From contig OZ022588.1 in assembly GCA_963669155.1 (NCBI GenBank), forward strand, positions 11,267,067 to 11,331,066: DNA of 64,000 nt. The letters run 5' to 3'. A program made the position numbers and the translations under genes. Below the pieces are notes generated by a model. The model made no database searches, was not told the origin of the DNA, and worked only from the letters and a program-made list of their open reading frames with translations. Positions within the stretch are counted from its first letter, which is position 1, and every line of letters begins with the position of its first letter. This document shows, one piece after another, positions 2,757 to 64,000 of the stretch. The DNA is from Arbacia lixula (Eukaryota; Echinodermata; Echinoidea; Arbacioida; Arbaciidae).

Positions 2757-3420
2757 TGAAGTCACGGTGAGACCAGCTAACTAGTGACGACAAACGATGT
2801 TGGTATGTGTATGTTACGTTTGACGTCACGGTCAGACCAACATACCAGTAATAACCATCAATATCGGTACATGAATAATACAATTGACGTCATGGTGAGA
2901 CCAACTAACCAGTAACAGCCTCCCAATCACTGTTCACTGTTGTAATACTCTCACAAAATTTAAATCAGATGTGCGTCGTATAAGCTACACCTGGGCACTG
3001 CGTTAGGCCGGGGGGGGGGGGGGGGGGGTCACTCACTCACTTACACATTTGTGTGACTTTTTTTTTTCTTTTCCTTCTTCAAATGTGTTTTTGTGTTAGT
3101 CTTTGTTATTGTTATCTTTGATCTTTGTATTAATTGTATTTGAATGTTACATATTTTGTTATGTTTACGTGATTTGTATCACAGGGCTCCTTTGGAAAGC
3201 AGTCCTCGAGACTGAAAGGACTACCTTGTCTAAATAAAACGTGAAATGAAAAATAAATGAAATGAAAAATGACGATCAATGTCGGTAACATGAGTGTTAC
3301 GTGTGACGTAACGGTAAGACCAACCAGTGATGGCAGCCACAGTTGGTACGAGTATGCTAGGTTTGACTGGAGTCGTGCTTGTGTAACTCTTGGTCTTATA
3401 AATTGGGCTAACTACCATGG
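2757..3420 (+). repeat. 64-bp minisatellite, forward arm, copy A
   Basis: Diverged units of about 64 bp with the order TGACGTCACGG, AGACCAACTAACCAGT, GATGACGATCAATG, TTGGTACGTGTATGTTACG. Perfect TGACGTCA octamers lie at 2821-2828 and 2885-2892. The array is interrupted by the retrotransposon-like insertion at 2916-3269. The reverse-complement units follow from about 3590, so the two arms face each other. Confidence 0.85.
2916..3269 (+). mobile_element. 5'-truncated LINE-like 3' end inserted in copy A
   Basis: Copy B has an uninterrupted minisatellite unit at the matching place (AGTAATGACGATC), so this segment is an insertion. It ends with CTTTGGAAAGCAGTCC, a GACTGAAAGG motif, TAAATAAA and short GAAAT/AAAT tail repeats. 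That is the usual layout of the 3' terminus of CR1/L2-like non-LTR retrotransposons. A 19-base G run sits inside (3010-3028). No coding remnant is visible. Family assignment is an inference from the tail style. Confidence 0.6.
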
Positions 3421-3589
3421 CTACCTGTTTTAACTCTCAGAGCTCGACGTTAAATAACAATGCTAAATCGATACTTGGAGAATTGGTCCCAGTCTAATTG
3501 AACGATATTAATCATTGCGTTGTTAGGAGAGTTCGTCTGGAAGGTTGAATATGAAATCGTAGAATACATGCAACAAACCCTGGAAATGT

Positions 3590-4170
3590 TGTCCATCATC
3601 GCTAGTAGGTAGGTCTTACCGTGACATGTATGCACCAACATTGCTCGCCACTGGTGAAATGGTCACAACTGGTCGTGCGTGTTTTTACACATGTGTGTCT
3701 GTGGCTTGCGTCGAGTGTGGGCCGATTTCTGTGATGCGTTGCGTTTCAACATAGCTGAGACAAGATTACGACCACCTTGCAGGCAATCTTGCAGGCACGA
3801 CGTCAACCGTAACATACATGTACTAACATCGATCGTCATCACTGGTTAGCTGGTCTTCCGTCACGTCAAAATTACCATACTACCAACATTGATCGTCATC
3901 ACTGGTTATTTAGTCTTACCGTGATATTCAACTGTAGCATACACGTACCAATATTGATCGTCATCACTGGTTAGTTGGTCTCACCGTGACGTCACACGTA
4001 ACATAAACGTACCAACATCGATCTTCATCACTGGTTATTTAGTCTTACCGAAACATCAACCGTATATAGGTACCAATATCGATGGTCATCACTGGATAGT
4101 TGTTCTTACTATGGCGTAAAACCCAACATACACGTACCTGTACCAACATTAGCCAACATCGGTTGTTAGT
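3590..4170 (-). repeat. 64-bp minisatellite, reverse arm, copy A
   Basis: The same unit as the forward arm in reverse complement: CGTACCAACATCGATCGTCA, TCACTGGTTAGTTGGTCT, CACCGTGACGTCA. About eight diverged units. One perfect TGACGTCA lies at 3987-3994. It grades into GA-rich sequence at 4200-4320. Confidence 0.85.
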
Positions 4171-4526
4171 TAGTTTAGAGACGCGGAATGGAAACATATC
4201 ATACACCGACAGAGAGAGGGAGAAGAGTAAGGAGAGAGAGAGGGAGACATATATTGAGAGAGATTCACTGACAGACGGATATACACGCGACAAACAGAGA
4301 GAAAGAAAGGAAGGGTGAGGTGAAGAGACAGAAAACAGACATTCAAACAAGGATATACAATGTCAGAGAAAGCGACAGATAGAACCTTACAAGAAAATCA
4401 AATATGGCAAAGTTCTATCATTTGTTCTATTCTCAGTTGAAAAGAAGACAAATATCTATGACCACAGCCTCCCGTACTTTCCCCCGTCATAACGCACTAT
4501 GTACACCTGTGGTCATCGTGGTGAGA

Positions 4527-4549
4527 GGGGGGGGGGGGGGGGGGGGGGG
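4527..4549. repeat. Poly(G) tract of 23 bases
   Basis: An uninterrupted G run. Copy B has only a short G stretch at the same place (near 10320), so the tract length differs between copies. Confidence 0.9.
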
Positions 4550-5109
4550 CTTCGAACTCTAAGAGTGTGTTACCCCTTAGGTACTCCTTAGTAGCACCCT
4601 CTTGGCGACCACACCCGAAATAAACACGAGCGACCGAGGTGCGTGCGGCGTGACCCACCCTGTTTGTTTGGGTCCTCCGCACTATGTTGACTTATACCCC
4701 CGAGTCAGGGACCAGTCATCATGGTCATGCTTGGAAGGAAGGAGCTACACCATGGAAACACCATGTGGTACGGGTGACTCCGCCAGCGGTATTCAAAATG
4801 GGATGACAAAAAAGACTTCGCTCATTCAGTCACGCCGCACGGAGATTAAATCTGGGTAGACAAACTGTCCGTTAAGAGTGTTTAAATAGGGGGAAAAGTA
4901 CAAAATACGACGGAAATGCCGAGATAATACTTATCAATATGGTAGAAATTATTGCATTCTATTCGATCAATAATTCATTTTGGAAAAGAAAATGCAGGAA
5001 AGAGGTAACGTGATATATTTTGAAATATAATTCAGTTCGAATGGGTATCTCTAGCTGGCTGGAGATTAGTTGGCGACCTGGTAGAGACTTAATGTCCGCG
5101 ACCTCTTCT

Positions 5110-5268
5110 GGGTCCTGTTGCATAAAACTTACCACTGATGGTAACTTTGCTACTAATGGCAATTTCTATGGCACCTTGAATCTCATCGGCTGTCAAGCAA
5201 TGTTACCATGGCAGTTATCACTGATGGCAGAGTTACCATTAATAGTGAAGTTTTATGCAACGGAGCCC
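5110..5268. mobile_element. TTGCATAAAACTT MITE, copy A1
   Basis: About 159 bp with terminal inverted repeats of about 35 bp. The left end reads GGGTCCTGTTGCATAAAACT and the right end is its near complement, ending TTTTATGCAACGGAGCCC. TGGTAAC/GTTACCA motifs lie just inside. It is too short to code for anything, so it would need a transposase supplied elsewhere. Superfamily unknown. Confidence 0.8.
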
Positions 5269-5950
5269 AGGAGACCAGCCGGCTCTCCGGGGAGCCGCAA
5301 AAATTTCAAATAATCATATTCATTGTTTTCCAGGCTCCAACAGGTCATAGAGACTAAATTTATCTCTGCGACGCGTCGCGACGTCGCGGAGACGTCGCCG
5401 CAGCTAAGAAGAAGTCGAGGAGATTGGTTGTCACCATGTCTGTAGACGTCGAAGAGACATCACCTTGGTGGGAGCATAAGCCATGACTTGGTGTCGGGAG
5501 TCGCCGCCAATCGGTATTTCAAAACCTTTCCGCGTTGACCCAGATTTGTTTGCGTTGCACAAGGTAGTCACACTGATAGTATATTGGTCTACACCCATTA
5601 ATTCCCATTTTCGATGAACGGGGGTTAGGGTAAGGGTGGCATATCGCGGGAAGATTTATGGCATATGGATTTTGCTTAGATTACCTAATCATAGACTTTA
5701 TTCCGTCCGCAGTCCGTTGGTGTCACGTTCAGCTCAAGTAAGATTTTCCGTTCACTTCATGCCGACGTTTTCAAGCGGTCCAGGTCTTGTCAGTTTAAAC
5801 CCGCTCCAAACTTACTCCTACCTCGTTCTAAATACGTCCAAACTCTAGTTCTTAATCCAACCCCCTTGTTTCAAGATAGCTCACCTCATTCTTACTTCGT
5901 CCCCATTTGGCCCCTGGTGCGTCACGGAACACAATTGCAATTGCCTCTTG

Positions 5951-6106
5951 AGCCCCGTTGCATAAAACTTACCATTAATGGTAACTCGGTCATTAATGCT
6001 AACTACCATGGTAGCATCGCTCAACAGCCAATCAAGTTCCAGGTTTAAATAGAATACCATCGGTAGTAAAGTTACCATCAATGGTGAGTTTTATGCAAAA
6101 GTGCCC
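5951..6106. mobile_element. TTGCATAAAACTT MITE, copy A2
   Basis: Same family as at 5110, with ends AGCCCCGTTGCATAAAACTT and TTTTATGCAAAAGTGCCC and an internal CTACCATGGTAG palindrome. The matching copy in the second block is 11851-12006. Confidence 0.8.
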
Positions 6107-6477
6107 TGACCCGACTGCACGTAGTTTCTATTCCCCATTCCTAACAAAAATGTTTTTGTTACAGCAGTCAGTAATCCCAAAGAAGTAATCTTTATTTGGG
6201 CTCTACATGTATATAAAATGAATTAGTAACGTACCTTATATATGTGTATAATAGTCATGGCACCAGCGTGCACACATGTATGTACAAGTAGTCTCGGCAC
6301 TAGGCGTTCGTACATGTATTTACACGTAGATTTGGCAACAGGCGATCGTTCATGTATCTACACATAGTCTCTGCACCAGACGTACGTACATGTATGATCA
6401 CTAGAACAGCGACCCTCCTGCCTACTAGTCACAAAGTTTGAATTATTCTAACCCATTGTGTACCAGACAAACTTCAA

Positions 6478-6635
6478 GGCCCCATTGCATAAAACTTCCC
6501 ATTAATGATAACTCTGTCATCGATGGTAACTGCCATGGTAGTACCGCTCGACAGTCAATCAAATTCAAGGTTTCCATAGAAGTTTCCATTGGAAGCAAAG
6601 TTGCCATCAATGGTTAGATTTATGCAACAGGGCCC
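6478..6635. mobile_element. TTGCATAAAACTT MITE, copy A3
   Basis: Same family, with ends GGCCCCATTGCATAAAACTT and TTTATGCAACAGGGCCC. The internal CCATGG palindrome is kept. The matching copy is 12450-12607. Confidence 0.8.
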
Positions 6636-7364
6636 TGATCTATGATGTACATGTGCATTACTTGTGTCAAAGTGCACACGTGACCATGGTGACGGTGAAA
6701 GCGTTAACTTGCTATCTAGTTGGTCGAATATGTGCAAACTAGCTATTGCATCCTGATGTAACAAAAAAAACAAAGAAACGCATACACAAACGACACGTGC
6801 ACAAATAAGGAAATATAATGGACATATGTACATAAACGGAAGAAAGAAGGAAGGAATAGATATAAAATGGGGGAATTAATTAGTGATTGAATGAAGAAAT
6901 AGATAAATAGATTGATGAATATAAAGATAATGAGATATCTAGTAAATGAAATTAATGAGTGAATGATTAATGATTTGTTAAATTCATTGTTAATCTGCAA
7001 ATACCGTATTGCAAGGCGATTATTTCGTATGAGGTTTTTCAATCATATTATGGGACTTTATTTTCTGACTATGCCTACAACCGTCCTGTCCTTATGCCCA
7101 TAATGTTAACGATCTTTCTTTAAAATGTAAATTGTGTGTCGTTTAGGGAAATAAAGAAAATGAAATTAATTAAATAAATTCCATTTCATAAATTAATAGA
7201 AATACATGAAAATAAATGAATGAAATCAAATAGACAAGTTTGTATAAAAGATGGGAGACGGATTATGGGGGTGAAACTTTGCCCCTCTATCACCCCTGGG
7301 CCAAATTTGCACACCCCTATAAGTATCGGATGGAGTCGAGTGATTAATGCAATGCTTACATGGG

Positions 7365-7564
7365 NNNNNNNNNNNNNNNNNNNNNNNNNNNNNNNNNNNN
7401 NNNNNNNNNNNNNNNNNNNNNNNNNNNNNNNNNNNNNNNNNNNNNNNNNNNNNNNNNNNNNNNNNNNNNNNNNNNNNNNNNNNNNNNNNNNNNNNNNNNN
7501 NNNNNNNNNNNNNNNNNNNNNNNNNNNNNNNNNNNNNNNNNNNNNNNNNNNNNNNNNNNNNNNN
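7365..7564. other. Assembly gap, 200 N
   Basis: Exactly 200 undetermined bases, the kind of fixed-size spacer used in scaffolding, so the true distance is unknown. The right flank (7570-7630) is G, T and G homopolymer of doubtful quality. Any translation across this point is meaningless. Confidence 0.99.
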
Positions 7565-8569: not shown

Positions 8570-9110
8570 TATGACCATCAATGCTTGTACATGTTTGTTG
8601 CGTGTGACGTCATGGTAAGAACAACTAATCAGTGATGACCAGTCACGGTTAGACCAACTAACCAGTGATGACGATCGATATTAGTACGTGTATGTTACGT
8701 GTGACGTCACTGTAAGAACACCTAACCAGTGATGACGATTAATGTTGGTATGTGTATGTTTTGTTTGACGTCACGGTAAGACCAACTATCTAGTGATGAC
8801 GACTGATGTTGGTACGTGTATGTTACGTTTGAAGTCACGGTGAGACCAGCTAACCAGTGACGACGACTGATGTTGGTACGTGTGTGTTACGTTTGACGTC
8901 ACGGTCAGACCAACATACCAGTAATGACCATCAATATCGGTACATGAATGTTACAAACGTCATGTTGAGACCAACTAACCAGTAATGACGATCAATGTCG
9001 GTAACATGAGTGTTACGTGTGACGTAACGGTAAGATCAACCAGTGATGGCGGTCACTGTTGGTACGAGTATGCTAGGTTTGACTGGAGTCGTGCTTGTGT
9101 AACTCTTGGT
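8570..9110 (+). repeat. 64-bp minisatellite, forward arm, copy B
   Basis: About eight units. The GACGTCAC core recurs at 8703, 8767, 8831 (as GAAGTCAC) and 8895, which fixes the 64-bp period. Perfect TGACGTCA octamers are at 8605-8612, 8702-8709, 8766-8773 and 8894-8901. This arm has more units than the copy A arm. Confidence 0.88.
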
Positions 9111-9299
9111 CTTATAAATTGGGCTAACTACCATGGCTACCGGTAATAACTCTCAGAGCTCGACGTTAAATAACAATGCTAATACGATACTTGGAGAATT
9201 GGTCCCAATCTAATTGAACGATATTAATCATTGCGTTGTTAGGAGAGTTCGTCTGGAAGGTTGAATATGAAATCGTAGAATACATGCAACAAACCCTGG

Positions 9300-9970
9300 A
9301 AATGTTGGCCATCATCGCTAGTAGGTAGGTCTTACCGTGACATGTATGCACCAACACTGCTCGTCACTGGTGAAATGGTCACAACTGGCCGCGCGTGTTT
9401 TTACACATGCGCATGTCTGTGGCTTGCGTCGAGTATGGGCCGATTCCTGTGATGCGTTGCGTTTCAACATAGCTGAGACAAGATTACGACCACCTTGCAG
9501 GCAATCTTGCAGGCACGACGTCAACCGTAACATACACGTATTAACATCGATCGTCATTGCTGGTTAGCTGGTCTTCCGTGACGTCAAACTTACCATACAT
9601 ATACCAACATTGATCGTCATCACTGGTTATTTAGTCTTACCGTGATATTCAACTGTAGCATAAACGTACCAATATTGATGGTCACAACTGGTTAGTTGAT
9701 TTTACCGTGAGGTCAACGTATACATAAATGTACCAACACTGATCGTCATCACTGGTTAGTTGGTCTCACCGTGACGTCACAGGTAACATAAACGTACCAA
9801 CATCGATCTTCATCACTGGTTATTTAGTCTTACCGTGACATCGGCCGTATATAGGTACCAATATCAATGGTCATCACTGGATAGTTGTTCTTACTATGGC
9901 GTAAAACCAAACATACATGTACCTGTACCAGCATTAGCCGTCATCGGTTGTTAGTTAGTTTGGAGACGGG
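9300..9970 (-). repeat. 64-bp minisatellite, reverse arm, copy B
   Basis: About nine units in reverse complement to the arm at 8570-9110. Perfect TGACGTCA octamers are at 9579-9586 and 9772-9779; the other units carry one- or two-base variants. With the forward arm it forms a long imperfect inverted repeat around a ~190-bp centre. Confidence 0.88.
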
Positions 9971-10885
9971 GAATGGAAACGTAGCATACACCGATAGAGA
10001 GAGGGAGAAGAGTAAGGAGAGAGAGAGAGAAGGGGACATATATTGAGAGAGATTCACTGACAGTCGGATATACACGCGATAAACAGAGAGAAAGATAGGA
10101 AGGGTGGGGTGAACAGACAGAAAACACACAGTCAAACAAGGATATACAATGTCAGAGAAAGCGACAGATAGAACCTTATACAAGAAAATCAAATATGGCA
10201 AAGTTCTATCATTTGTTCTATTCTCAGTTGAAAAGAAGGCAAACCTCTATGACCGCAGCCTCCCGTACTTTCCCCCGTCATAACGCACTATGTACACCTG
10301 TGGTCATCGTGGTAAGAGAGGGGGGCCTTCGAACCCTAGGAGTGTGTTACCCCTTAGGTACTCCTGAGTAGCACCCTCTTGGCGACCACACCCGAAATAA
10401 ACACGAGCGACCGAGGTGCGTGCGGCGTGACCCACCCTGTTTGTTTGGGTCCTCCGCACTGTGTTGACTTATACCCCCGAGTCAGGGACCAGTCATCATG
10501 GTCATGCTTGGAAGGAAGGAGCTACATCATGGGAACACCATGTGGTACGGGTGACTCCGCCAGCGGTATTCAAAATGGGTTGACAAAAATGACTTCGCTC
10601 ATTCAGTCACTCCGCACGGAGATTAAATCTGGGTACACAAACTGTCCGTTAAGAATGTTTAAAAAGGGGGAAAGTACAAAATACGACGGAAATGCCGAGA
10701 TAATACTTATCAATATGGTAGAAATTACTGCATTCTATTTGATCAATAACTCATTTTGGAAAATAAAATGCAGGAAAGAGGTATCGTGATATGTTCTGAA
10801 ATATAATTCAGTTCGAATGTGTATCTCTGGCTGGCTGGAAATTAGTTGGCGACCTGGTAGAGACTTAATGTCCGCGACCTCTTCT

Positions 10886-11045
10886 GGGTCCTGTTGCATA
10901 AAACTTACCACTGATGGTATCATTGCTACTAATGGCAATTTCTATGGACACCTTGAATCTCATTGGCTGTCAAGCAATGTTACCATGCTCATTATCACTG
11001 ATGGCAGAGTTACCATTAATTGTGAAGTTTTATGCAACAGAGCCC
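10886..11045. mobile_element. TTGCATAAAACTT MITE, copy B1
   Basis: Counterpart of 5110-5268. Ends GGGTCCTGTTGCATAAAACT and TTTTATGCAACAGAGCCC. Several substitutions and small indels against A1. Confidence 0.8.
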
Positions 11046-11720
11046 AGGATACTAGCCGGCTCTCCGGGAAGCAGCAAAAATTTCAAATAATTATGTTCAT
11101 TGTTTTCCAGGCACCAAGAGGTCATAGACACTAAATTTGTCTCTGCGACGTCGCGGAGACTTCGCCGCAGCTAAGAAGAAGTCAAGGCGATTGGTTGTCA
11201 CCATGTCTGTAGACGTCGAAGAGACATCACCTTGGTGGGAGTATAAGCCATGACTTGGTGTCGGGAGTCGCCGCCAATCGGTATTTCAAAACCTTTCCGT
11301 GTTGACCCAGATCGCTTTGCGTTGCACAAGGTATAGTAACACTGATAGTACAGTGGTCTACATGGTCTACACCCATTAATTCCCATTTCGATGAACGGGG
11401 GTTAGGGTAAGGGTGGAATATCGCGGGAAGATTTATGGCATTTGGATTGTGCTTAGATACCCTAATCATAGACTTTATTCCGTCAGCAGTCCGTCGGTGT
11501 CACGTTCAGCTCAAGTAAGAGTTCCCGTTCACTTCATGCCGACGTTTTCAAACGGTCCAGGTCTTGTCAGTTTAAACCTGCTCCGAACTTACTCCTACCT
11601 CCTTCTGAATACGTCCAAAATCTAGTTCTTAATCATGTTAATCTGACCACCTTGTTTCAAGATAGCTCACCTCATTCTTACTTCCTCCCCATTTGGCCCC
11701 AGGTGGGTCACAGAACACAA

Positions 11721-11834
11721 TACACCATTTCGTAATTACACCATGGTCGGACAATGCACTGAATAAATACTATTATACTATTTACTAAAAGAATTAATCT
11801 GCTCATGCGCAAATTGCAATTACGAAATGGCTTA
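11721..11834. mobile_element. Small TIR element present only in copy B
   Basis: Copy A reads straight through (AACACAATTGCAATTGCC) where copy B has 114 extra bases. The insert is bounded by CCATTTCGTAATTAC and its complement AATTACGAAATGG, so it looks like a very short inverted-repeat transposon. The presence/absence pattern gives its borders to within a few bases. Confidence 0.65.
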
Positions 11835-11850
11835 TTGCAATTGCCTTTTA

Positions 11851-12006
11851 AGCCCCGTTGCATAAAACTTACCATTAATGGTAACTCGGCCATTAACGCT
11901 AACTACCATGGTAGTATCGCTCAACAGCGAATCAAGTTCCAGGTTTGAATAGAATACCATCGGTAGCAAAGTTACCATCAATGGTCAGTTTTATGCAAAA
12001 GTGCCC
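11851..12006. mobile_element. TTGCATAAAACTT MITE, copy B2
   Basis: Counterpart of 5951-6106 with the same termini and internal CTACCATGGTAG. The 114-bp element lies immediately to its left. Confidence 0.8.
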
Positions 12007-12449
12007 TGATCTGAATGCTTTGAATACCCAGCACGTAGTTTCTATTCCTCATCCGCTATTTGCCCTTCAAGCTATACACATCGAGACAATGACTGCATTT
12101 CCGACCATCTTCGATCAACTGCCTCTACCAAAAATGGTTTTGTTACACCAGTCAGTAATCCCAAAGAAGTAATCTTTATTTGGGCTCTACATGTATATAA
12201 AATGAAAAAGTAACGTACCTTATACATGTATATAATAGTCACGGCACCAGCGTACACACATGTATGTACAAATAGTCTCGGCACTAGGCGTTCGTACATG
12301 TATTTACACGTAGATTTGGCAACAGGCGATCGTTAATGTATCTACACGTAGTCTCTGCACCAGGCGTACGTACGTAAACAGCAAACCTTCTGCCTACTAG
12401 TCACAAAGTTTGAATTTCTCTAACCCATCGTGTACCAGACAAACTTCTC

Positions 12450-12607
12450 GGCCCCATTGCATAAAACTTCCCATTAATGATGACACTGCCATCGATGAAA
12501 ACTACCATGGTAGTACCGCTCGACAGTCAATCAAATTCAAGGTTTCCATAGAAGTTTCCATTGGAAGCAAAGTTGCCATCAATGGTTAGATTTATGCAAC
12601 AGGGCCC
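12450..12607. mobile_element. TTGCATAAAACTT MITE, copy B3
   Basis: Counterpart of 6478-6635. Termini GGCCCCATTGCATAAAACTT and TTTATGCAACAGGGCCC. Confidence 0.8.
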
Positions 12608-13338
12608 TGATCTATGATGTACATGTGCATTACTTGTGTCAAAGTGCACACGTGACCATGGTGACGGGGAAAGCGTTAACTTGCTATCTAGTTGGTCGAA
12701 TATGTGCAAACTAGCTATTGCATCCTGATGTAACAAAAAAAAACAAAGAAACGCATACACAAACGACACGTGCACAAATAAGGAAATATAATGGACATAT
12801 GTACATAAACGGAAGAAAGAAGGAAGGAATAGATATAAAATGAGGGAATTAATTAGTGATTGAATGAAGAAATAGATAAATAGATTGATGAATATAAAGA
12901 TAATGAGATATCTAGTAAATGAAATTAATGAGTGAATGATGAATGATTTGTTAAATTCATTGTTAATCTGCAAATACCGTATTGCAAGGCGATTATTTCG
13001 TATGAGGTTTTTTCAATTATATTATGGGACTTTATTTTCTGACTATGCCTACAACCGTCCTGTCCTTATGCCCATAATGTTAACGATCTTTCTTTAAAAT
13101 GTAAATTGTGTGTCGTTTAGGGAAATGAAGAAAATGAAATTAATTAAATAAATTCCATTTCATAAATTCATAGAAATACATGAAAATAAATGAATGAAAT
13201 CAAATAGACAATTTTGTATAAAAGATGGGAGACGGATTATGGGGGTAAAACTTTGCCCCTCTATCACCCCTGGGCCAAATTTGCACACCCCTATAAGTAT
13301 CGGATGGAGTCGAGTGATTAATGCAATGCTTACACGGG

Positions 13339-49770: not shown

Positions 49771-51181
49771 TTTCGCCATAAACACCGTGATCATCACCAG
49801 GAACATCGACTTGTTCCTCCTCCTTTGTTGTTTTCTTCTTCTCCTTCACATTCGTCTTCGTCTTGATCATCACCGTCACCACCGTCAACCTCTTCATCTT
49901 CCTTCTCCTCCAACTCATCAGGTCAAGCCTCGTAGTATTGTATGATTCTGCGGGATCCTACGTGAATAATTCATGAGAAAGAGCTTGCCTTCATTATACT
50001 CCCTCTTCGTTCGTCTTCCCATGCCCTTTCTCTTCTATCTCAACCTCGTTCTTCCCTTCGTTTTGTTTTCTTCTTCCTTCCTTCTCCTTCTTCCTCTTCG
50101 CTGGTCTTCTAGTGCCCTTTCTCTTCTCTCTCATGTTTACTCCTTTCCTCTTTTTCGCTTCTTCTTCCTCTTCCTCCCTCTTCGCTCGTCTACCCGTACC
50201 GTTTCTTTTATCTCTCATGCCTACTCATTGCCATTCTACCCTCTGGTTTCTCCGTCATTTCTTTCTCCATCTTCACCTGCAAAGTTAACACGGGCAGACC
50301 TCATGTAAAGTGTCGGGCATACTCCAAAATTTGATTTTCCATGATCATAGAGCATCAGATTCGTCTGTTCTCCTCTCCAGCCAAGATCCCCTCCTCCCAA
50401 GCCGCCCCAAAATAAATGAAAGATAACACCAACAACAATAACAGCTCAATAGTTAGAAGTCAAATCGAGCTGAAATTTGGTTCAGGCCAGAGCTTTGTTT
50501 CAGACTCAGCTGCACAAGATAGAGAGGTCTATATGACATAATGTTACAGAGATATGATAGGGGAAAAAGTGAAGTACAAACATGGTGAGCATGATAAAGC
50601 TAAAAGATGTCACATCATTTTTAGGAGCGCAGTTTCTGTGTAAAGTTGTATCTACCTTGTGATTCCTATGACGCTGGACTCAGTTAAAACCTTGTTTAGT
50701 ACTTATGTGCCACGAACACATCCTTGTATACCGGTAAATGATAAGTGCTCTTATCTTTCATTATGTTGATTAGCTCCTTTTATATCCATTCATTATTGCA
50801 GTATACAGTTTAATAATGTTATGTTGCGGATTCAGTTTGGTTCCTTATTTCAGCTTTTAAAATATGTCTTTCTATTCTACTCAGTACCTTATTAGAAATC
50901 CATAAACACACTCAAAATTCGTATTTTGGTTGCAATATTTCAGTGCAATATAATGTAATTTAGCATAAACAAGTTTTGTATTTTCATAATTGTGTTCAAT
51001 ATAGCTTAATTATTGTGACATTATAGGTATGATTATTATTGTATTGTAACATATATATATAAATTCATTAATTCATATTCTTGTTATCATCCTTAAATGC
51101 TTTGTATGCCGGACAAGCTTATTCTCTAAGGGGGTTCATGTGCACGTTGAGATTTAGATGTTCAATAATAATACTAATGAT

Positions 51182-51429: not shown

Positions 51430-53720
51430 TACATTGAATTGAATTGAATTTTACTTCCACATATAACATAAACATACAACGTAGAAGTACATAAAATGAT
51501 ACGTTCATATGCATATAAATAAGTGAAGAGGGACATTAACAACGTAAATAGAATGCATATAGAAAACATTATTAAATGACTGCCTGTACACTTCAATAAC
51601 AGAAAATCGATAACATATGACAATGTGGGGGGAGCCTATAAAAAAGCGAAGCTTGTAGGGTTAAAGACTCCCCGTTACAATATATGAGATTTCATAAAGA
51701 TTTACACATTTATTAAATCAAAGTGCGGTAAAGGGGGGGGGGGGGGGGAGAAAGTTAAAGGTGAAGGGCATACGTACCTGCGCTTGAATGTATAGATGGT
51801 TACGGATGATGCAGTTCACTGCTTAGTCTTTGATATATTGTTCTTTGGCGACATAATGTCCGGGTCAGTGGGAGATGATAAAGGCTTGATTGTCTTGTGG
51901 GATAATTAGGTACGTCTCAGTTTCTGCAGAATAAACCAAGGATGTTTTGAAGTAATATTTCTTATGCTAGCTGGTATATGAAGGAACTTAGACTTAAATT
52001 GTAGAGATCGTGATATTTTAGGACTCGGTTTTGGTAAAATAAATTGTTTGTATGTTCTCGGTAGTCTGTACCACTTATTATTCTCATTGCTCCTTTTGTA
52101 GTAATACTATCTTATTTGTTTGTGACGTGCCAGAATACAAAAATTCAAGTGTGAAAGCACCAAAGCGGAATAGAGGCATAGACGTGCGTGTTGAGGGAGA
52201 AAGTGTTTGAGTTTGTTGATAATTCCAATGTTACGTGAGACTTTCTTGCATAACTCATCAACATGGAGTTTCCAAGTGAGAGCATCGTCATCGTATACCC
52301 CCAGGAATGGGGTTTGGAAGAAGTGAGAGAGTTTTGCTGATTGGCATATAATTCGTTTGTCAAGGTTTAGAGAAAGTCTATTTGCATGTATCCTGCTGTT
52401 GACGTTTTTTCAATTCCTTATTCATGACATTGACAAGTGTATCGGGGCTTGAATGTGAGAAGAATATATTGGAGTCGTCTGCAAATAATATAAATGATAA
52501 CAATTTGGAAGATTTGCATATGTCGTTTATGTACAAAATGAATAGTAAGGGACCTAGAATTGAGCTAGGGCACGCTGCTTGAAACATTCCTCATTTCAGA
52601 TTCACAGTGTTTTGTTACTTCATATTGTTTCCTGTTGTCTAGGTAACTCCTGAATCACTCCAAGGCCATACCTCTGACACCGTAATCAATGCGACAATTT
52701 ATTTAACAATAATTATGTTGTGGTCAACTGTGTCAAAGGCCTTGGAGAAGTCCAGGAACACACCAATAGTATGCATGTAGCCTATCATCCAGTGATTTAC
52801 TTATTTTGTGTACTAGGGTCAGTAGGGCATGTGATGTGTTGTGGTTTTCGCGAAAGCCAAATTGTGTGTCATTAAGAATGCTGTTTTGTTTTCCGAAGTA
52901 GACAAGTCGCGTATAAAGATTTTTTTCTAGGATCTTTGAAAAGGTTGTGAAGCGAGATCGGACTATAATTGGTAAAGGGCTGTGTTTCCTTTTTTTAATA
53001 TTGGTACAATTTTCGCAATTTTCATTTGATCGGGAAATATACTAGTTGTCAAGGATAAATTGAAGATATGATTTAGTGGGATAAGAAGGTCGGGTAGAAT
53101 TCTTTTCAGCAATGTGTTGTTGATATTATTGAAGCCTGGACTTTTGTCGTTTTTGAACTGTGTAACAATGTTTGATATTTCTGCCGCATCCGTTGGATAC
53201 AGGAAAAGTGTGTTCAGATTGGGGTCCGGCATAAAGTCCTTGAAGTCAATATTTGTGCGTGGTAATTTATTTTCCAAGTTTGGACCAACATTTACCAAGT
53301 AATTGTTAAAATATGCTAGGGAAAGTCTATTTAACAAAAAATGGGTTTTTAATATAGATTTATATTGGTCTGTTCAGTATGCTTGTTTTGTGCTCTGAGG
53401 TAGATTGTTTCAAAGTTGAGGGGATGGTGAATAAAAAGATCGGGAACCATAAGACTGGGTCTTGGTGGCAGGAACTTCTAAGAATAATTTTTGCCTGATG
53501 AGCGCAAGTTGCGGGAGGACGAGTATTCTGATATTAACTGTTGAAGATAGACCGGAGCTGATTTCATCAAACATTGGCAAGTAAGCAAGAGAATCTTAAA
53601 ATCAACTTGTTCACGAACCCTTAGCATATGAAGCTCCCTTAGCAGTAGAGTGACAGACTCACGTGAACGACGTTTAGCAATAAGCCTAGCTGTGAATTTT
53701 GTATTCTCTGCAGTTTGTTA
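51430..53720 (-). pseudogene. Decayed CR1/L2/Jockey-like LINE with reverse transcriptase
   Basis: Minus strand. 52963-53337 encodes the start of the RT domain, including DKSPGFNNINNTLLKRILPD and PDQMKIAKIVPILKKG. 52378-52587 encodes SILGPLLFILYINDI and the catalytic FADD box (FILFADDSNIFF). A third frame near 52100-52280 reads LTWKLHVDELCKKVSRNIGI and a C-terminal LCLYSALVLSHLNFC. These are the ordered RT landmarks of non-LTR retrotransposons. Frame changes and stops between them make it non-functional. The 3' end at 51430 has an ATTCAATTCAATTCAATG tail. No endonuclease domain was identified, so the copy appears 5' truncated. Clade placement is tentative. Confidence 0.85.
51733..51748. repeat. 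Poly(G) tract, 16 bases
   Basis: An uninterrupted G run inside the LINE 3' region. Confidence 0.9.
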
Positions 53721-56531: not shown

Positions 56532-56621
56532 ATGACCGATTATACATCCGCAACGCCTCAAACATCCACAAATCTGGACGGGAACGCAGCTTTTGCTGAC
56601 GCCGTGCAAAGGGCGAGAGCG
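56532..56621 (+). CDS. FUBP1: FUBP exon 1: start and N-box first half
   Basis: 30 codons, phase 0, donor GTAAGT. It encodes MTDYTSATPQ to QRARA. The final AFADAVQRARA is the start of the N-box helix, which in vertebrate FBP contacts the repressor FIR (PUF60). Confidence 0.93.
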
Positions 56622-59600
56622 GTAAGTAAAAAATGACAAATATTACACCCATTTTAGACTTGTCTAAAATGTTCATATCTGTTCGCCAGAAAGTCGAGGA
56701 AGGTATGTGCACACAATGCTGAACGTGCGCTTTATGCATGCAACAGTGCCGTGGTCCGCTAGTGCTCACACAATACAATCCAGGCGTGCTCATCATTGCA
56801 ATCATGCCAATATGTTGAACTAACTTGTGCTTTGGTGCATTCCTTCGTCTCCTTTTAATCCTTTCAAGATTGTATTTTATTTGAACAGGAACCCACGAAC
56901 TTAAAAATACTGCTGATAATAAGATGGGATCTTGAAAGATAGAATCGCACTCACAAACAGTGACATCAAATTTTAAATTTGAGTTGGTATGCATCGGATG
57001 CTGCGTGGCTCGAGTTAAATTAAGCCGGTCCCTTTCTACTAACTTAACACTTCTTTGCTTTCAGTTTTCAATATATTGGTACCGGCAATCCCGTACAATA
57101 GGGGACCAGGCAGTATAGCACATGTATACTGCACGCAAATGGGAACGCTGCAATACTGATTGTCGTCGGCAGAAAGTGACCTAGAAATCACTTTTTTTGA
57201 CAAATTAAGCAGCAAAAATTTTGTCTAGGGTTAGGGTTTGGGTCAGTGTTAGGTTCAGAATTAGGTTTAGGGTTAGGGTTAGGGTCAGGGATAGGTTTAG
57301 GGTTAAAATTCATAAAATTAGTGGGATACCCTGGTCCCCTATTGTACGGGATTGCCTTGGTACCAAGCTGTTCAACTGAAAAATTTCAGAATATTGCAAT
57401 AAAATTAAGTCAAAGACTGTCCAACTTAAATGCCTATCTGCTATTTAATCGCTGAACATTGAAACCGTCCCCCATCATGCCATGGCTTCATGCCCATTTG
57501 ATTTATGGGCGATGTCTGTATGGCATGGTGGTGGTGCTGTGCCAAAATTTTATTCCCATACACTCCAGCTCAAAGGAATTGACATAGATAGGGAAAAGGA
57601 AAGGGAAAAAGAAAGGGAAGTAGCTGCAGTTTTAAACCATGTTATATTTTGTTCAGTTCAGCATGAAACATGATGCTTTTTAGGCTAAAGCATCATGTTT
57701 CATGCTGAACTGGACAAAATATACAGCGGTTTGAAACTGCGGCTCCTTCCCTTTCTTCCCTTTTCCTATGCCAATTCCTTTGAGCTGTAGTGCATATACC
57801 ATTTCAGCTGTAGGCCTACATTTGATATCATTAGGCACATGTTTTTATACACATGCGTCTTTGGAAAAATGAATTCCATCGCCAAAAAACAAAGGGTAAT
57901 TTATGGAATTATGGAATCGCACACAACACAATACACAACGCAATAAAAAAATCTTCTCTCTGAAATTTGTGTAAAATCCAAGACATTCGGTGATAGAGCT
58001 TTTGCAAAATACGGCACCCAAATTATGGAATAACCTCCCCCAAGGGCCTTGACAGATTTCGATCAGTTAAAATCAACACTAAAAGATGTATCTGTTTGAT
58101 TATTATGAGTTATTTTCAAATTCTCACATAATCAATTTTTTGCTTCCACACGCATAGAGACTATTTGAATGGTAATTATTTTTATATTGGGAGAGCACCA
58201 CACATGTGACATCACAATATATTGAAAATTATGACAATGCAGAAATTTATCTTTAAACTGTACACTAAAAGGTGAATCATCACATGGAGTTGTGCTGAAG
58301 TGATATGAGGTCTAGAATTAGAAAACTTGCCTTGAATTCATGTCTTTCACAGTAACTGAAGTGTGTGAATTTCAACCAAACAGGTAAGTATGGTAATGAC
58401 CTATAAATGCATTTCAGGTCTGTCCGAGAAAAATGTGGAGTGCAGTTCAATTTAAACACTCATTTCTTCTTGTTTGCTTTACATGTGTTGCTGGTTTGTA
58501 CGTATAGATCGCTGCTAAGATTGGCGGTTCTAGTACAGTAGGAGTAAACTCAGGTTCCGGCACAGCCGATGCGAGCGTACTGCCCTCTGCTGGTGGATTA
58601 GGAGCACTCACTGGAGGTGACGCAGCGAGCAGAATCAAGCGCCCGCTTGAAGACTCAAACTCAGACGCAGAACCCGCAACCAAGAACTTAGCCATGCAGA
58701 ACGACAATGACTTCAACAGTAAGTGCGCTTCAAATTTCATGGTTGGACCCTTTTTTTGAAATCACAATATACATTTTACAAACAGGTTTTACCACCCAAG
58801 CTGTTGGCCATTCCAAAAGCTTTTCTTTCTCACAATTTTTGGAGTGAAATCCCCTTAGGAAAATGGATTAGAATTATTCCAATACTTAATGTGGATGTAT
58901 TTGTTTGTTCTTGAGCAATTCTTTATCCAGATCATCAAACTTTCTTTGTTTTTCTCTTTTTGTAGCCTTTGGCGCATCGCTTCCGGGCATGCCAAGAGCA
59001 TCGCCAGCTTCTGGTAGCAATATGAGGTAAGATTACTTGATCTATGAAAGAACAATGCCTTTTAGTACGCAAAAGTTTTGGTTTTAACAAGTCAGAATGA
59101 GTATTGATTTGCAGTGACAGTTCGCAGGTTGTATATTATACTAATACAAATACTGTAACTTGATTTTATTTAATCAATCCATCTTCTGTTTAGGAGAGAG
59201 GTTATTCCACAGGGATGGGGCAATTTTTGTGTCATACCACTACTCCAAATCCATATCTATTGGCAAATGTAGTCCAATAATGGCATGAGCAAAAAAATGA
59301 GGTCCCATCATATTATTTCTCAAAGACCATATCATATTGCAATTTCACTTCTTGAAATTTCTTGTCCATGTAATAACAATATGATCTCTATGTAACGGTG
59401 GTAGATATTTGTATGCCTGTTGCTTCAAATCCATGGAAGATTTCCAATTTGAAAGTTTATTACTGAGAAAAGAGAGCAATTTTTCATTGCCAGCTCAAAA
59501 CTTAACCACATCTGAATTGATCTTCATGGTGAACTGCAAAGGTTCATACCTCTGTTACATGGACATTGCATGAAAAGTTTGCCCAAAGCCCACAGAATGA

Positions 59601-62600
59601 CCCAGAGAATAGGAGTGTAAATGGGATACTAGAAAAGCAGTGTACAATTGAAAGGACAATGATTAACTGTTGTAATTTGACACACATACCAGCACTCCTT
59701 ATTGTAAACAAGTTGGTCTTGAAGTAAAACACCAAGCACATTTCAATGTGAAATTTCTTAGGGGTATTTTGCAGTACAAAAGAAAATTGAATGGGGAGGG
59801 CTCTATGCCCCCTCCCCCACCCCCTTCCCTCTAATTATTTTGGTATTGAATGCTTTCATTACATGAACAATTTTATCAGTTTCTTGGGGAGTTCCAACTT
59901 ACTACCAGAATGTCTCTCTCACCTCCATAACAATGTTTTACTTGATTGTTGAAAGAATAGGTCCCTGCCTCTAAAGTACACAAACAATTTTGCTATTATC
60001 TTTGAAGCCCTTTTCATCCTTGGTCATAATTGTATTATCTTTGATGTTACACTGTTTTATTGATGTTTCTGTTGCAGTGGTCAAGTCAGTGGTCAAGGGT
60101 CAATAAATGAAGAATACTTTGTGCCAGACAATCTAGTCGGTCTGAGTAAGTATCTCTGGCTGAAATCACTCACCATTTGTTCTGCTTTATTGTTTCAGTC
60201 GTGCTGGTCAGGGGTCTGAAGAATTCTTTGTGCCAAATAAGATGGTTGGTCTCAGTGAGTATACCAGATCTCTTTACCAAAAAGCAAACCAATCCTATAA
60301 ATTGCCAGCTCAGTATTCTTCCCAGTGGGTTTTCATCTCAGTGGGTTGGGAAGTGTGCTTCCAAGCTTTCTTTCTTCCCTGCACAGCCCTTGCCCATCCA
60401 GGGACGCACCGAGTCCAGACCTATTTTATCATCACTGCTGCTCTCTTTATTTTGTGACAAGCGTTTTGTTTGTTCAAGTGCTATTCCTCTTTGGATCAAA
60501 CAAATTCATTCATTTGAGCTTGTGCAAGGGTGAACAAACTGCCATTTGTCATGGTCTCTCTAGAAAAATAATGGAGATGACAATTTGGCAGGCCTTTTGT
60601 GTTTTTGTGTTTCATTTGTTTAGCCTGTACAAACTTTTAATTCGTTTCACCAATATACAAAGTGCAGGAAATGGTATAAATAACATAAATGCTCATGTTT
60701 GCTTGAATATGTCGTCTCAACTTACATGCATGTTTGTGCATGTTATATTCTTTATATATTGCAAGTTCGTTCTTTATATGTTAATTTATGTATTTATTTA
60801 AAGGGGGAGCAAACTGTGTGTGGTCTCTCACTGACTGTTATAAATACGTAGTCTTAAGATGTACATTTTTAGATAACTATACTAATAATGCAGAGAATAA
60901 GTTCCCGCAGCACGCCAAATGATTTTCCGCTAAAACACCAAAAGGCAGCTTGAAAGAAATGTATCGCATAGATTTTGCGTGTCGCGCATTTACCCGGGAT
61001 GAACTGATATCGCGACAGAACATCGTTTCTTCTATCCTTTAAGTTTTTCATCATTATTTGTATCATTTGCTTGTGTGACAATGTAAAATCCAAATGAGCG
61101 ATATTGTGGTATTAATTATATAAAGTTGACATCTCATTTTCTCTCTTGTAATAATTGTAGGATATAAATCAAATATAACATGCACTATTTTCGAAGTACC
61201 AGGTGAAATTATGGATTCCTCGGTGTTGGGAATAGTACTATTCCTGCCACCTTGGAATCCATAATTTCACTGGAACATCTCAGTGCATGGTATATTTGAT
61301 TATTATTTTAGGGGGGGGGGGGGGGCAGATGTTACTTCATAGCTTCATAGGCCTATCTAAAAAACATGAGCAGAAGTGGTGTACAGGGTTACATTGTGAA
61401 TCAGGGAACTCTTTTGGAGATATTTGCTTGCAGTATCTAAGTTTGTGGCAACATAAGTGTGTTCAAATTATTTTTACATTCTTGTCAATGTGTTCTGTCT
61501 ATAAAGCAGTGTGTATAGTGTTGCTGTACTGAAATGGCATTACATTTCTCTGTCGAAAGTGCAATATATGGTATTTCTTTTCAATGGCTGTGAATGCATG
61601 CAAATACTGACAGCAATATCCTTTATCTTTTACTTTCATTGTTACTAGTTTGCAATGTGCAATTTGGGGCAATGAAATGATATTACCCATTTTCTGTAAA
61701 ATTGACAGGTTGCATAAGATGTGGAAAGACCTAATTTAGAATATATATATCGTTTGTGGGTTGAATGTTGACATTGAGTTCAACATGATGCAATATGCCA
61801 GGTTCCCATATAGTAGAGTGCCCTCTTCCATCGCCTTGAATTCTATTTTGAGATACAGAAGCCCATCCAAGGCAGCTAAGATTGCCTCTGCATAGTGCAC
61901 TCATGATTATGGATTATTGAATATTGAAACCTCAAAGTCCAAAAGTCAATTGAACTTGAAATCTGATTGTAAGTTGTGAATGTACAAAGTTGGTGCGAAG
62001 GTGGTGCAGTCCAGCATTAGGAGTTTTGCCAAATAAAGTTCTCGATGCTGTGGGATTTGTATGTTTTAGTGGTGCTGAAATTGCTTGATCGGCATTCTAA
62101 AGGATTAATGTGATGTGGCTTCTTTCCCCTGTGCAGTCATTGGCCGAGGAGGACAGCAGATCACGGCGCTGCAAGCTGAGTCAGGCTGCAACATCCAAAT
62201 AGCCCCAGGTATGAAGCATACAGAATTGGTTCTAGTATTGCACATGGTAAAGTGTGCATCTATTATTGGTAGTACTAGAAGTAGTACTAGTAGTAACTGA
62301 ACTTCTCTGTTCAGTACTTCATCACTTTTACTTGTACCACTTTGCAAGTAACCAGTACATGTAATACTACTACTTCTTTCCTTTTGACAGAAATATGCAA
62401 AACTCTCTTTTATCATATCGTGATTCATGCAGTTCCTATATTATGTGCAAACTGCTGGCATGTAAAAAAATATGTGTTGATTAGCCCTTTGTGAGCCAAA
62501 AAAAATAGTTGCTCTTTGGGATTGTGTATTACTTGCGAAACAAGCTAAAATGTACACATAGTGTACAAAGAGTTCTGAAAGTATTGATTGTAGTCCTCTG

Positions 62601-64000
62601 CAAGATTCAATTCAGTTCAATTTGTTTATTTTCCACAACTTAACAATACAATCAATACAAGATATATCATGAAAATACAATTCAATGCAGTAAAGGAGGT
62701 AATACAATTCAATGTGGAGGGAAGAACAAAGGCCATTGGCCTATCAAAGGTTCTTCCCTACAATCAATGCAGGGGTTAATTTTGTTTGCTATTGACCGGC
62801 TTTGTGTGTTGCGTTTCAGATAGCGGATCAGCTCCTACTCGACAAGTTACCCTCACTGGAACCCCAGAGGCTGTTGCGTAAGTATTATGGATGCTAGATA
62901 TTGAGATTAGTTTGTGTTGTATAGGAAGGTTTCAAGGGAGAGAATATTATTGGAGAGGAGGTCTGCAGTTACTTCATGTAAGTTGGGATGTATGTTGTCG
63001 AAATGCTCATTTAGTCATGGAGACCCATTCTTCATTCATTTTCAAATGTAGTAGACAAGGATGTGGAGCATAGTTTCCTATTTACAGCAGGACTGGAGAA
63101 TGTTCACTTCAGTGAACTGAAATTTGCTCAATACAATGGTTTTTTTTATTCTGTGAGGAGAGTTACATTTGAGCAATTTCTGTGGGCATCAAACTTTCTA
63201 CTTTTTCCATGTATAATATCTGAATGCCCAAGGGTTGTTTCCCAAGAAGAAACGGTTAATTGCAAGTGGCAGTAATCGTTACATTTAAGTCTAATAGATA
63301 CACCAGCATAACTTACGTTGGCTCTCTGGTTTCTTGCAGGCATGCCAAGACATTGATTGACGAAATCGTGTCCAAGGCCAATCAGAACGAGTCTGAGGGA
63401 AACTTCACTTGTGAGATGATCATCCCGTCAACCAAAGTTGGACTCGTGATCGGTAAAGGTGGCGAAACGATCAGGCAGTTGCAGGTAAGTAACAGGTTTT
63501 ATGACCTCGACCATCGCATAGTAAATGCCATCTCAAAGCATTCTTTCAAAATTGTGCTTGTTTGCTGATTTTATTCATGCCAGATCTTACAAAGAGATCC
63601 CTTATGGACATTACATGATAGAAATTATTACAAAACTATGTTCGGAACGCAAAGGAAGATATTTTCTTTCATTTTTCCCGAAAGGTATGTCGAGCTATGA
63701 CTGAGATTTCATACTCGTTACTGTACACAGCTGATAATTGCCAAGCTTCATGATTTGTGTTTAACTCTATAATGTGCCATGTGTGTATTACTTCAACAGT
63801 AATGCAGACAAATCCCATAGAGAGGCATTTTGCCTGACACACAAAGGGTTAAGAGACTCATGAAGTGTTCCAGCAGAGAGGTCACTCTGCATTAAGTCCA
63901 TGACCTTAATTCCGAGTTTGTTTCTGTCTCTGTTCTTAGGAGCAAGCTGGTGTCAGGATGGTGATGATCCAAGATGGGCCTGGAAACATTGGTGTTGACA
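56532..64000 (+). CDS. FUBP1: Far-upstream-element-binding protein (FUBP/KHSRP family), 3' partial
   Basis: Single-stranded nucleic-acid-binding KH protein. Vertebrate members act in the nucleus in MYC transcription control and in RNA splicing and decay. Coding exons: 56532-56621, 58508-58718, 58966-59026, then 60078-60145 or 60199-60254, 62137-62208, 62820-62877, 63340-63484 and 63940-64000 (continues). All junctions are GT..AG and phases agree. Domains: N-box AFADAVQRARAIAAKIGG (residues 20-37), basic patch RIKRPLED (72-79), KH1 (about 133-197) with GRGG at 146-149, and KH2 from about 210 with GKGG at 225-228. The window ends at residue 255, inside KH2; the family normally has four KH domains plus a Tyr-rich C-terminus, which must lie beyond. 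The start ATG gives MTDYTS, similar to the MADYS start of FUBP1. Invertebrates usually have one gene for the three vertebrate paralogues, so the symbol marks the family, not one-to-one orthology. Confidence 0.95.
57076..57366. mobile_element. TIR cassette with TTAGGG-like repeats in FUBP intron 1
   Basis: Terminal inverted repeats of about 40 bp. Left: TTGGTACCGGCAATCCCGTA, then CAATAGGGGACCAGG. Right: CCTGGTCCCCTATTGTACGG, then GATTGCCTTGGTACCAA. Within it, 57225-57304 is a degenerate array of TTAGGG, TTAGGTTTAGGG and TCAGGG units on the plus strand. Probably a non-autonomous element carrying a telomere-like minisatellite. Confidence 0.75.
57557..57797. mobile_element. Long foldback hairpin in FUBP intron 1
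   Basis: Two ~115-bp arms meet at a 7-base loop near 57683. The inner part is perfectly paired (AGTTCAGCATGAAACATGAT then GCTTT, against its complement). The outer part, rich in GGGAAAAGGAAAGGG, pairs with one length difference, and CAGCTCAAAGGAATTG closes the base. Transcription through the gene would produce a long RNA duplex. Confidence 0.85.
58508..58718 (+). CDS. FUBP1: FUBP exon 2: N-box second half, basic patch
   Basis: 211 bases, phase 0 in and 1 out. It starts IAAKIGG, completing the N-box helix, then a Gly/Ser/Ala-rich linker, RIKRPLED and an acidic SNSDAEPATKN stretch. The order matches FUBP1, where KRPLED is likewise followed by acidic residues. Donor GTAAGT. Confidence 0.93.
58966..59026 (+). 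CDS. FUBP1: FUBP exon 3: linker
   Basis: 61 bases, phase 1 in and 2 out. FGASLPGMPRASPASGSNM is a flexible linker, comparable to the FGTQLPPMH segment before KH1 in FUBP1. Acceptor TTTTTGTAG, donor GTAAGA. Confidence 0.9.
60078..60145 (+). CDS. FUBP1: FUBP exon 4a: alternative KH1 first strand
   Basis: 68 bases, phase 2 in and 1 out. It encodes SGQVSGQGSINEEYFVPDNL then VGL, the start of KH1 just before the IIGRGG loop of exon 5. Acceptor GTTGCAG, donor GTAAGT. It is homologous to exon 4b, 53 bases downstream, and is twelve bases longer. Confidence 0.88.
60199..60254 (+). CDS. FUBP1: FUBP exon 4b: duplicated alternative of exon 4a
   Basis: 56 bases, phase 2 in and 1 out, the same as 4a. It encodes SRAGQGSEEFFVPNKMVGL. 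It has its own acceptor (TTATTGTTTCAG) and donor (GTGAGT). Differences from 4a in the shared core are conservative (Y/F, D/N, N/K, L/M) or silent, and there is no stop, so it is unlikely to be a decayed duplicate. The MVGL end resembles the vertebrate sequence more than 4a does. Confidence 0.82.
61168..61300. mobile_element. 133-bp palindrome in FUBP intron 4
   Basis: ATCAAATATAACATGCACT on the left pairs with its complement ending at 61300; TGAAATTATGGATTCC pairs in the middle; GGAATAGTACTATTCC is the centre. Almost the whole unit is self-complementary. Likely a MITE. A 15-base G run follows at 61311-61325. Confidence 0.8.
62137..62208 (+). CDS. FUBP1: FUBP exon 5: KH1 GXXG loop and helix
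   Basis: 72 bases, phase 1 in and 1 out. IIGRGGQQITALQAESGCNI then QIAP is the KH1 core with the GRGG nucleic-acid-binding loop. It joins equally well to 4a or 4b. Donor GTATGA. Confidence 0.95.
62590..62775 (-). mobile_element. LINE-like 3' end fragment in FUBP intron 5
   Basis: The minus strand reads a GGAAGAACCTTTGATAGGCC segment, CTTCCCTCCACATTGAATTG and a GAAAATAAACAAATTGAACT tail ending in TTGAATTG-type repeats. The CCCCCCACATTG and TTCAATTCAATTCAATG elements of the LINE at 51430 are similar, suggesting the same clade. No coding part. Confidence 0.45.
62820..62877 (+). CDS. FUBP1: FUBP exon 6: KH1 last strand
   Basis: 58 bases, phase 1 in and 2 out. DSGSAPTRQVTLTGTPEAV matches the variable loop and third strand of KH1 (the family pattern is L/V-TGTPE-V). 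Acceptor TTGCGTTTCAG, donor GTAAGT. Confidence 0.93.
63340..63484 (+). CDS. FUBP1: FUBP exon 7: end of KH1, start of KH2
   Basis: 145 bases, phase 2 in and 0 out. AHAKTLIDEIVSKANQNESE closes KH1. CEMIIPSTKVGLVIGKGGET then IRQLQ starts KH2 with its GKGG loop. Donor GTAAGT. Confidence 0.95.
63940..64000 (+). CDS. FUBP1: FUBP exon 8: KH2 continued, cut by window end
   Basis: Starts in phase 0 after GTTCTTAG and encodes EQAGVRMVMIQDGPGNIGVD, the KH2 helix and strand matching the MVMIQDGP segment of FUBP1. The exon and the gene continue past 64000. Confidence 0.95.

Follow-up and report, generated by a model that had tools for sequence, protein, structure and literature searches.

In the window, by which we mean the whole 64,000-nucleotide stretch of Arbacia lixula DNA analysed here, two neighbouring exons of a FUBP gene, termed 4a and 4b, probably form a tandemly duplicated pair of mutually exclusive coding exons. 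The duplication itself is real, and the two copies are homologous. According to the mechanism we propose, either 4a or 4b would join exons 3 and 5 directly, and the choice between them would swap β1 and the first turn of α1 in the first KH domain (KH1).

The FUBP-type gene and its duplicated exon

The window covers the 5′ half of a FUBP-type gene, with all exons on the forward strand. Exon 1 (56532..56621) runs from the ATG at 56532 and encodes MTDYTSATPQTSTNLDGNAAFADAVQRARA, a FUBP N-terminus; the donor GTAAGT follows it, and its join to exon 2 is in frame (...AVQRARA-IAAKIGG). Exon 2 (58508..58718, 211 nt) encodes the N-terminal region, and exon 3 (58966..59026, 61 nt) the linker ahead of KH1, its last two bases beginning a split codon. 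Exon 4a (60078..60145, 68 nt, GQVSGQGSINEEYFVPDNLVGL) and exon 4b (60199..60254, 56 nt, RAGQGSEEFFVPNKMVGL) encode alternative versions of KH1 β1 and the α1 start, the former with the aspartate equivalent to D109 of human FUBP1 and the latter with N-K replacing D-N. Between them lies an intervening sequence of 53 nt (60146..60198), whereas all other introns of this gene that fall inside the window measure at least 247 nt, with intron 1 reaching 1,886 nt. Exon 5 (62137..62208, 72 nt) encodes the GRGG loop and, at the 3′ end, the counterpart of the human acid D139, whose codon it shares with exon 6 (62820..62877, 58 nt), which encodes the remainder of KH1. Exon 7 (63340..63484, 145 nt) holds the end of KH1 and the start of KH2, and exon 8 (63940..64000), also part of KH2, is cut by the window end.

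In regard to the identity of the gene, the best solved-structure matches of the joined protein in a structure-sequence comparison were KH1/KH2 of FUBP1 and KSRP (1x4n, FUBP1 KH1, 4.1e-26; 4lij, FUBP1 KH1, 5.7e-25; 2opu, 7.9e-25), and Pfam KH_1 matched it at 4.7e-32 with 4a and at 2.5e-33 with 4b. Visual inspection of the next stretch of the contig, rather than a full gene model, showed KH3 and KH4 stretches and a tyrosine-rich C-terminus with AAYYQQYY and QWAEYYR blocks; such C-terminal repeats we take to be a hallmark of the FUBP/KSRP/Psi family. With four KH domains, of which KH1 and KH2 are closest to FUBP1/KSRP, and with a tyrosine-rich end, the gene can be assigned to this family on sequence grounds, in agreement with the earlier note, which had named a FUBP gene as the host of the exon pair. 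When the species' own assembly (607 Mb, 590 contigs) was searched at the protein level with the 4a isoform as the query, 16 matches at E<=1 were obtained among the best candidates, which alone were scored. Seven of these fall in the FUBP gene and nine in other KH stretches with 32-46% identity, and thus a second FUBP gene was not found in the 607-Mb assembly. The same 16 matches included no processed mRNA copy recording the splice choice and no separate match to 4b. The 193-bp stretch with the exon pair matched only itself in the assembly, so that a second haplotype copy was not seen. Relatives of exon 7 in public prokaryote and viral contigs came to 0 confirmed of 162 and 27 pattern matches, and Rfam gave no match.

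The duplication is evident from several comparisons. The cores of 4a and 4b form an ungapped 46-nt direct repeat of 80% identity, 109 nt apart and extending through both donors. Their local alignment score of 51 compares with a maximum of 29 among 5,000 first-order Markov pairs; it was reached by 28 of 468 pairs of real adjacent pieces of the window, 27 of which overlap tandem arrays, while the remaining one (49951-50221) is pyrimidine-rich. In a scan with 4a as the query, which took AG...GT segments with the same frame and a comparable length, 4b ranked first with a relative score of 0.46; the next best segments not overlapping 4b scored 0.12 on the forward strand of the 64 kb and 0.25 on the reverse strand, and the maximum among 300 Markov-shuffled introns was 0.18. 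For exons 2, 3, 5, 6 and 7 the scan of the gene region gave no such duplicate (best <=0.15). Both 4a and 4b have GT-AG sites, equal phases and no in-frame stop, the first base of each completing the codon of exon 3 and the last beginning the codon that exon 5 completes. The coordinates, lengths, sites and phases (2 in, 1 out) given in the earlier note for two homologous exons were therefore exact, and its claim of a duplication is borne out.

Other repeats were observed elsewhere in the window. A tandem segmental duplication of about 6 kb (3268-7364 and 8984-13338) consists of pieces with 91-96% identity (3799-5935 with 9580-11721, and 6141-7364 with 12125-13338) and adjoins a 200-base N run (7365-7564); it may be real, or may represent two haplotypes joined in the assembly. 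Satellite-like arrays with a 64-base unit lie at 8642-9083 and 9517-9894, their consensus units looking reverse-complementary by eye. An open frame at 52963-53373 on the reverse strand resembles a piece of a non-LTR retrotransposon, with no Pfam match at E<=0.001. Intron 1 contains a TTAGGG-like interstitial repeat (57226-57305, 13.3 copies of a 6-base unit) and a long, nearly perfect inverted repeat at 57601-57770, which aligns with its own reverse complement and is foldback-element-like.

Reading frame, the short spacer and other explanations

The joins 3-4a-5 and 3-4b-5 both keep the frame. Inclusion of both exons leads to a premature stop in exon 5, as does skipping of both, and retention of the 53-nt spacer leads to a premature stop in 4b; the frame therefore survives only in mRNAs with one exon or the other. 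A stop that lies well ahead of later introns is expected to trigger nonsense-mediated decay (NMD), by which such slips, whether both, neither or a retained spacer, would be cleared. A frame broken by double inclusion or double skipping, as found here, is a common but not a required property of mutually exclusive exons, being recorded for 377 (60%) of the human clusters in PMC5740500.

The spacer itself offers a likely reason for the exclusion. Its best branch-point-like motif is CTCAC, with the A at intron base 27 (60172) and a T-rich tract after it, which would place the branch point used by 4b about 26 nt from the 4a donor and 26 nt ahead of the intron end. A further match to yTnAy, TTTAT, places the A just 9 nt away from the 3′ site. 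Some animals can splice introns of around 50 nt; a literature search for the minimal length of sea urchin introns yielded no paper. A distance of about 50 nt between the 5′ splice site and the branch point has been proposed as a threshold, with 41 nt in intron 2 of rat Tpm1, although the precise role of the short distance is called unclear in the same source (PMC7969005, available text). Similarly, a distance of <50 bp serves as the steric criterion in PMC5740500, where 57 (9%) such clusters are listed. The 4a donor lies below this limit from a branch point predicted by motif, and crowding in the 53-nt spacer is thus likely to exclude the joint use of 4a and 4b, the spacer probably not being removable as an intron. 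The short spacer described in the earlier note agrees with the 53 nt measured, and the single-exon joins are the only ones in frame.

Shared phase, splice sites and an open frame are also used to recognise exon duplicates in PMC3228551. Both exons have these properties with conserved splice sites; they are neighbouring internal exons of similar length and clear homology (68 and 56 nt, 80% over 46 nt including the donor), only one of them at a time preserves the frame, and the predicted branch point is close to the donor. By these sequence criteria, 4a and 4b are a candidate member of the class of tandem-duplicated mutually exclusive exons.

An alternative, which we regard as decidedly unlikely, is that 4b is not used and represents a copy of 4a undergoing decay. 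The earlier note credited both exons with good splice sites; the GT-AG sites are intact and usable, but their strength is middling by an approximate splice matrix. With this matrix the acceptors rank within the top 5.0% (4a) and 2.9% (4b) of all AG, and the donors within the top 6.7% (4a) and 5.8% (4b) of all GT, as compared with the top 0.06-1.4% for the sites of exons 3, 5 and 7; the sites of exons 2 and 6 have roughly the same weakness as those of the pair. Middling sites would suit a decaying copy, yet on the same matrix the sites of 4b score slightly above those of 4a, and its KH score is higher too; two similar sets of sites that fall short in strength of those in exons 3, 5 and 7 would also be expected if neither exon always wins. 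The coding changes speak on both sides. The 12 core codons differ at 8 bases, giving four amino-acid changes and two silent codon changes, so the description of conservative replacements with the other changes silent holds. A stop-free frame would survive in about 81-87% of random trials, and random substitution equals or exceeds the observed amino-acid identity without stops with P 0.18-0.29, as a decaying copy would predict; against it, the BLOSUM score is reached or exceeded without a stop with P 0.017-0.046 under random substitution (both P values uncorrected). Moreover, the similarity of the copies persists in the core (P ~0.0005) and the leader (P 0.0005-0.001), while the flanks are not detectably similar (P 0.06-0.91, in tests of low power), which, provided that the duplication once included the flanks, favours the retention of both copies. 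The claim that the changes are as expected under selection is thus weakly supported, by their conservative character and not by the identity, and the evidence for selection on 4a and 4b is modest.

It is also possible, though unlikely, that the pair serves dose control, with one exon working and competition between sites producing skipped or doubled transcripts that are removed by NMD, so that FUBP sets its own level. The three non-exclusive outcomes tested were all frame-shifted, and in the available part of PMC13247117 the C. elegans genes fubl-1 and fubl-3 regulate themselves through the skipping of exon 2, an essential exon of non-triplet length; in fubl-1 this exon would end inside the codons for the KH1 start, as suggested by a printed primer with the frame assumed. 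However, a single non-triplet exon would suffice for such control, and the well-scoring KH half of 4b, with its conservative changes, would be left unexplained. We consider it very improbable that both exons are real but owe their exclusivity to regulatory proteins or to RNA structure within introns 3 and 5 and not to the short spacer. Other mechanisms are left to account for 484 human clusters in the available text of PMC5740500, and intron 5, after exon 4b, contains four TGCATG hexamers (60727, 60737, 61284 and 61595), with at least four occurring in only 1.6% of 311 window steps. On the other hand, their excess has P = 0.075 against a first-order Markov model and three of the four lie inside inverted-repeat arms, one such arm pair being only 76% complementary. 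TGCATG is an RBFOX-like motif; the hexamers are a possible regulatory clue, and RBFOX-like regulation through them is not claimed. RNA structure was rejected as the cause of exclusion, since local folding was no more stable than in shuffled sequences (z = 0.43; equal or greater stability in 128 of 200 shuffles), and none of the 14 inverted-repeat pairs in 59027-62136 has an arm inside 60078-60254.

In intron 5, at 61162-61306, loopless 34-nt arms (61203-61270) are nested within 25-nt arms, an arrangement that resembles a short palindromic transposon. Of the TGCATG hexamers, one is located in the arm at 61282-61306 and another in a related arm at 60736-60759.

Pocket charge of the KH1 domain

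Returning to the exon pair, alignment to solved KH domains places the end of either exon just ahead of IIGRGG. The exon runs on through VGL and therefore encodes β1 together with the start of α1, the secondary structure being assigned by analogy with PMC7417555, in whose available part D109 sits in α1. The earlier note had assigned the pair to the first KH1 strand; β1 is indeed included, but by the same alignment so is the first turn of α1. Within this turn 4a has VPDN and 4b VPNK, i.e., the α1 aspartate is replaced by asparagine, followed by lysine, and this swap of D-N to N-K is probably the most consequential change between the two exons.

According to the accessible text of Ni et al. 2020 (PMC7417555), the KH1 pocket of human FUBP1 is less positive, for which a shorter loop, D139 and the α1 residue D109 are given as a feasible cause, while the differing pockets of KH2, KH3 and KH4 come partly from A194/A197, R284 and T385/T388. 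Counted along chain sequences, human D109 is the D of VPDG, as this count puts the D of IAPD at position 139. In the alignment, the D109 column is shared by R284 of KH3 and T385 of KH4; KH2 was mapped onto it through KSRP KH2, which has A there. In the sea urchin gene the equivalent of D139, again within IAPD, belongs to the constant part and is located at the exon 5/6 junction. By reading, the D109 column of the gene's own protein holds S in KH2, R in KH3 and A in KH4, so that 4b removes the sole acid at this place among the four domains. From 4a to 4b the net charge goes from -3 to -1 in the core and from -3 to 0 in the whole exon. For a Nova KH3 residue at the place equivalent to D109, a literature search found no paper.

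Both versions score as sound KH domains, with Pfam KH_1 giving 69.6 bits with 4a and 74.5 bits with 4b, and the best PDB matches of the two are alike, namely KH1 of FUBP1 and KSRP. Reading the pocket effect across from human FUBP1, we infer that the choice between 4a and 4b would be a specific switch of KH1 pocket charge. The 4a form would retain the acidic α1 residue and with it a lower positive charge of the pocket, while N-K in 4b would make the pocket edge more basic and nearer to KH2-KH4, with a different affinity or base preference as a possible result.

Known exon pairs and meaning for the FUBP family

Mutually exclusive exons are a known kind of arrangement, and several systems share parts of the one described here. 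The exon pairs of Tpm1 and OGDH likewise have less than about 50 nt between the 5′ splice site and the branch point of the intervening intron, as described in the available text of PMC7969005, although they belong to genes other than FUBP. For OGDH the same source reports remote branch points and a pyrimidine tract that is very long; in the FUBP gene, by contrast, the whole spacer is only 53 nt and the branch motif stands at an ordinary distance from the 3′ site. U2AF1 exons Ab and 3 are likewise duplicated exons in the gene of an RNA-binding splicing factor, and a stem-loop upstream of exon Ab binds FUBP1/2; in contrast to 4a/4b, they alter the U2AF-homology motif and not a KH domain, and the control described in PMC5224494 lies in a branch-point cluster and secondary structure. 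Within the family, exon 2 of C. elegans fubl-1/fubl-3 is a regulated non-triplet exon of a FUBP homologue whose skipping leads to a premature stop, but it is a single exon, skipped or included, and sets the level and not the kind of KH1 (PMC13247117, available part). Human FUBP1 has a tissue-regulated alternative NAGNAG acceptor, which, unlike 4a/4b, adds or removes three bases and has no duplicated pair in the account given in the accessible text of PMC3250501. No FUBP-family exon pair of this kind appeared among the open-literature titles listed, closed journals and gene-database annotation lying outside that scope, and the names 'FUBP' and 'KHSRP' are absent from the main texts, as available, of PMC9741552 and PMC5740500.

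FUBP proteins bind single-stranded DNA and RNA and have roles in transcription, mRNA stability and splicing. If the pair is used as proposed, a regulated form would be added to a family whose members themselves regulate splicing. The link between KH1 pocket charge and target choice was drawn by comparing different domains, according to the available part of PMC7417555; a natural matched pair differing at the residue named there, in an otherwise identical protein, would allow a direct test. Should the charge switch be true, KH1 with 4b would be expected to bind TTGTGTTA-type ligands more tightly or with different selectivity. As a tentative and rather doubtful extension, a single FUBP gene may toggle the acid of the KH1 pocket with an either-or exon and obtain two nucleic-acid readers by splicing; since each failed choice tested ends in a stop, the same switch could then also let FUBP, a splicing regulator itself, set its own form and amount. 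Vertebrates have three FUBP paralogues, and in the sea urchin splicing would, if this is true, do what vertebrates may do with the three.
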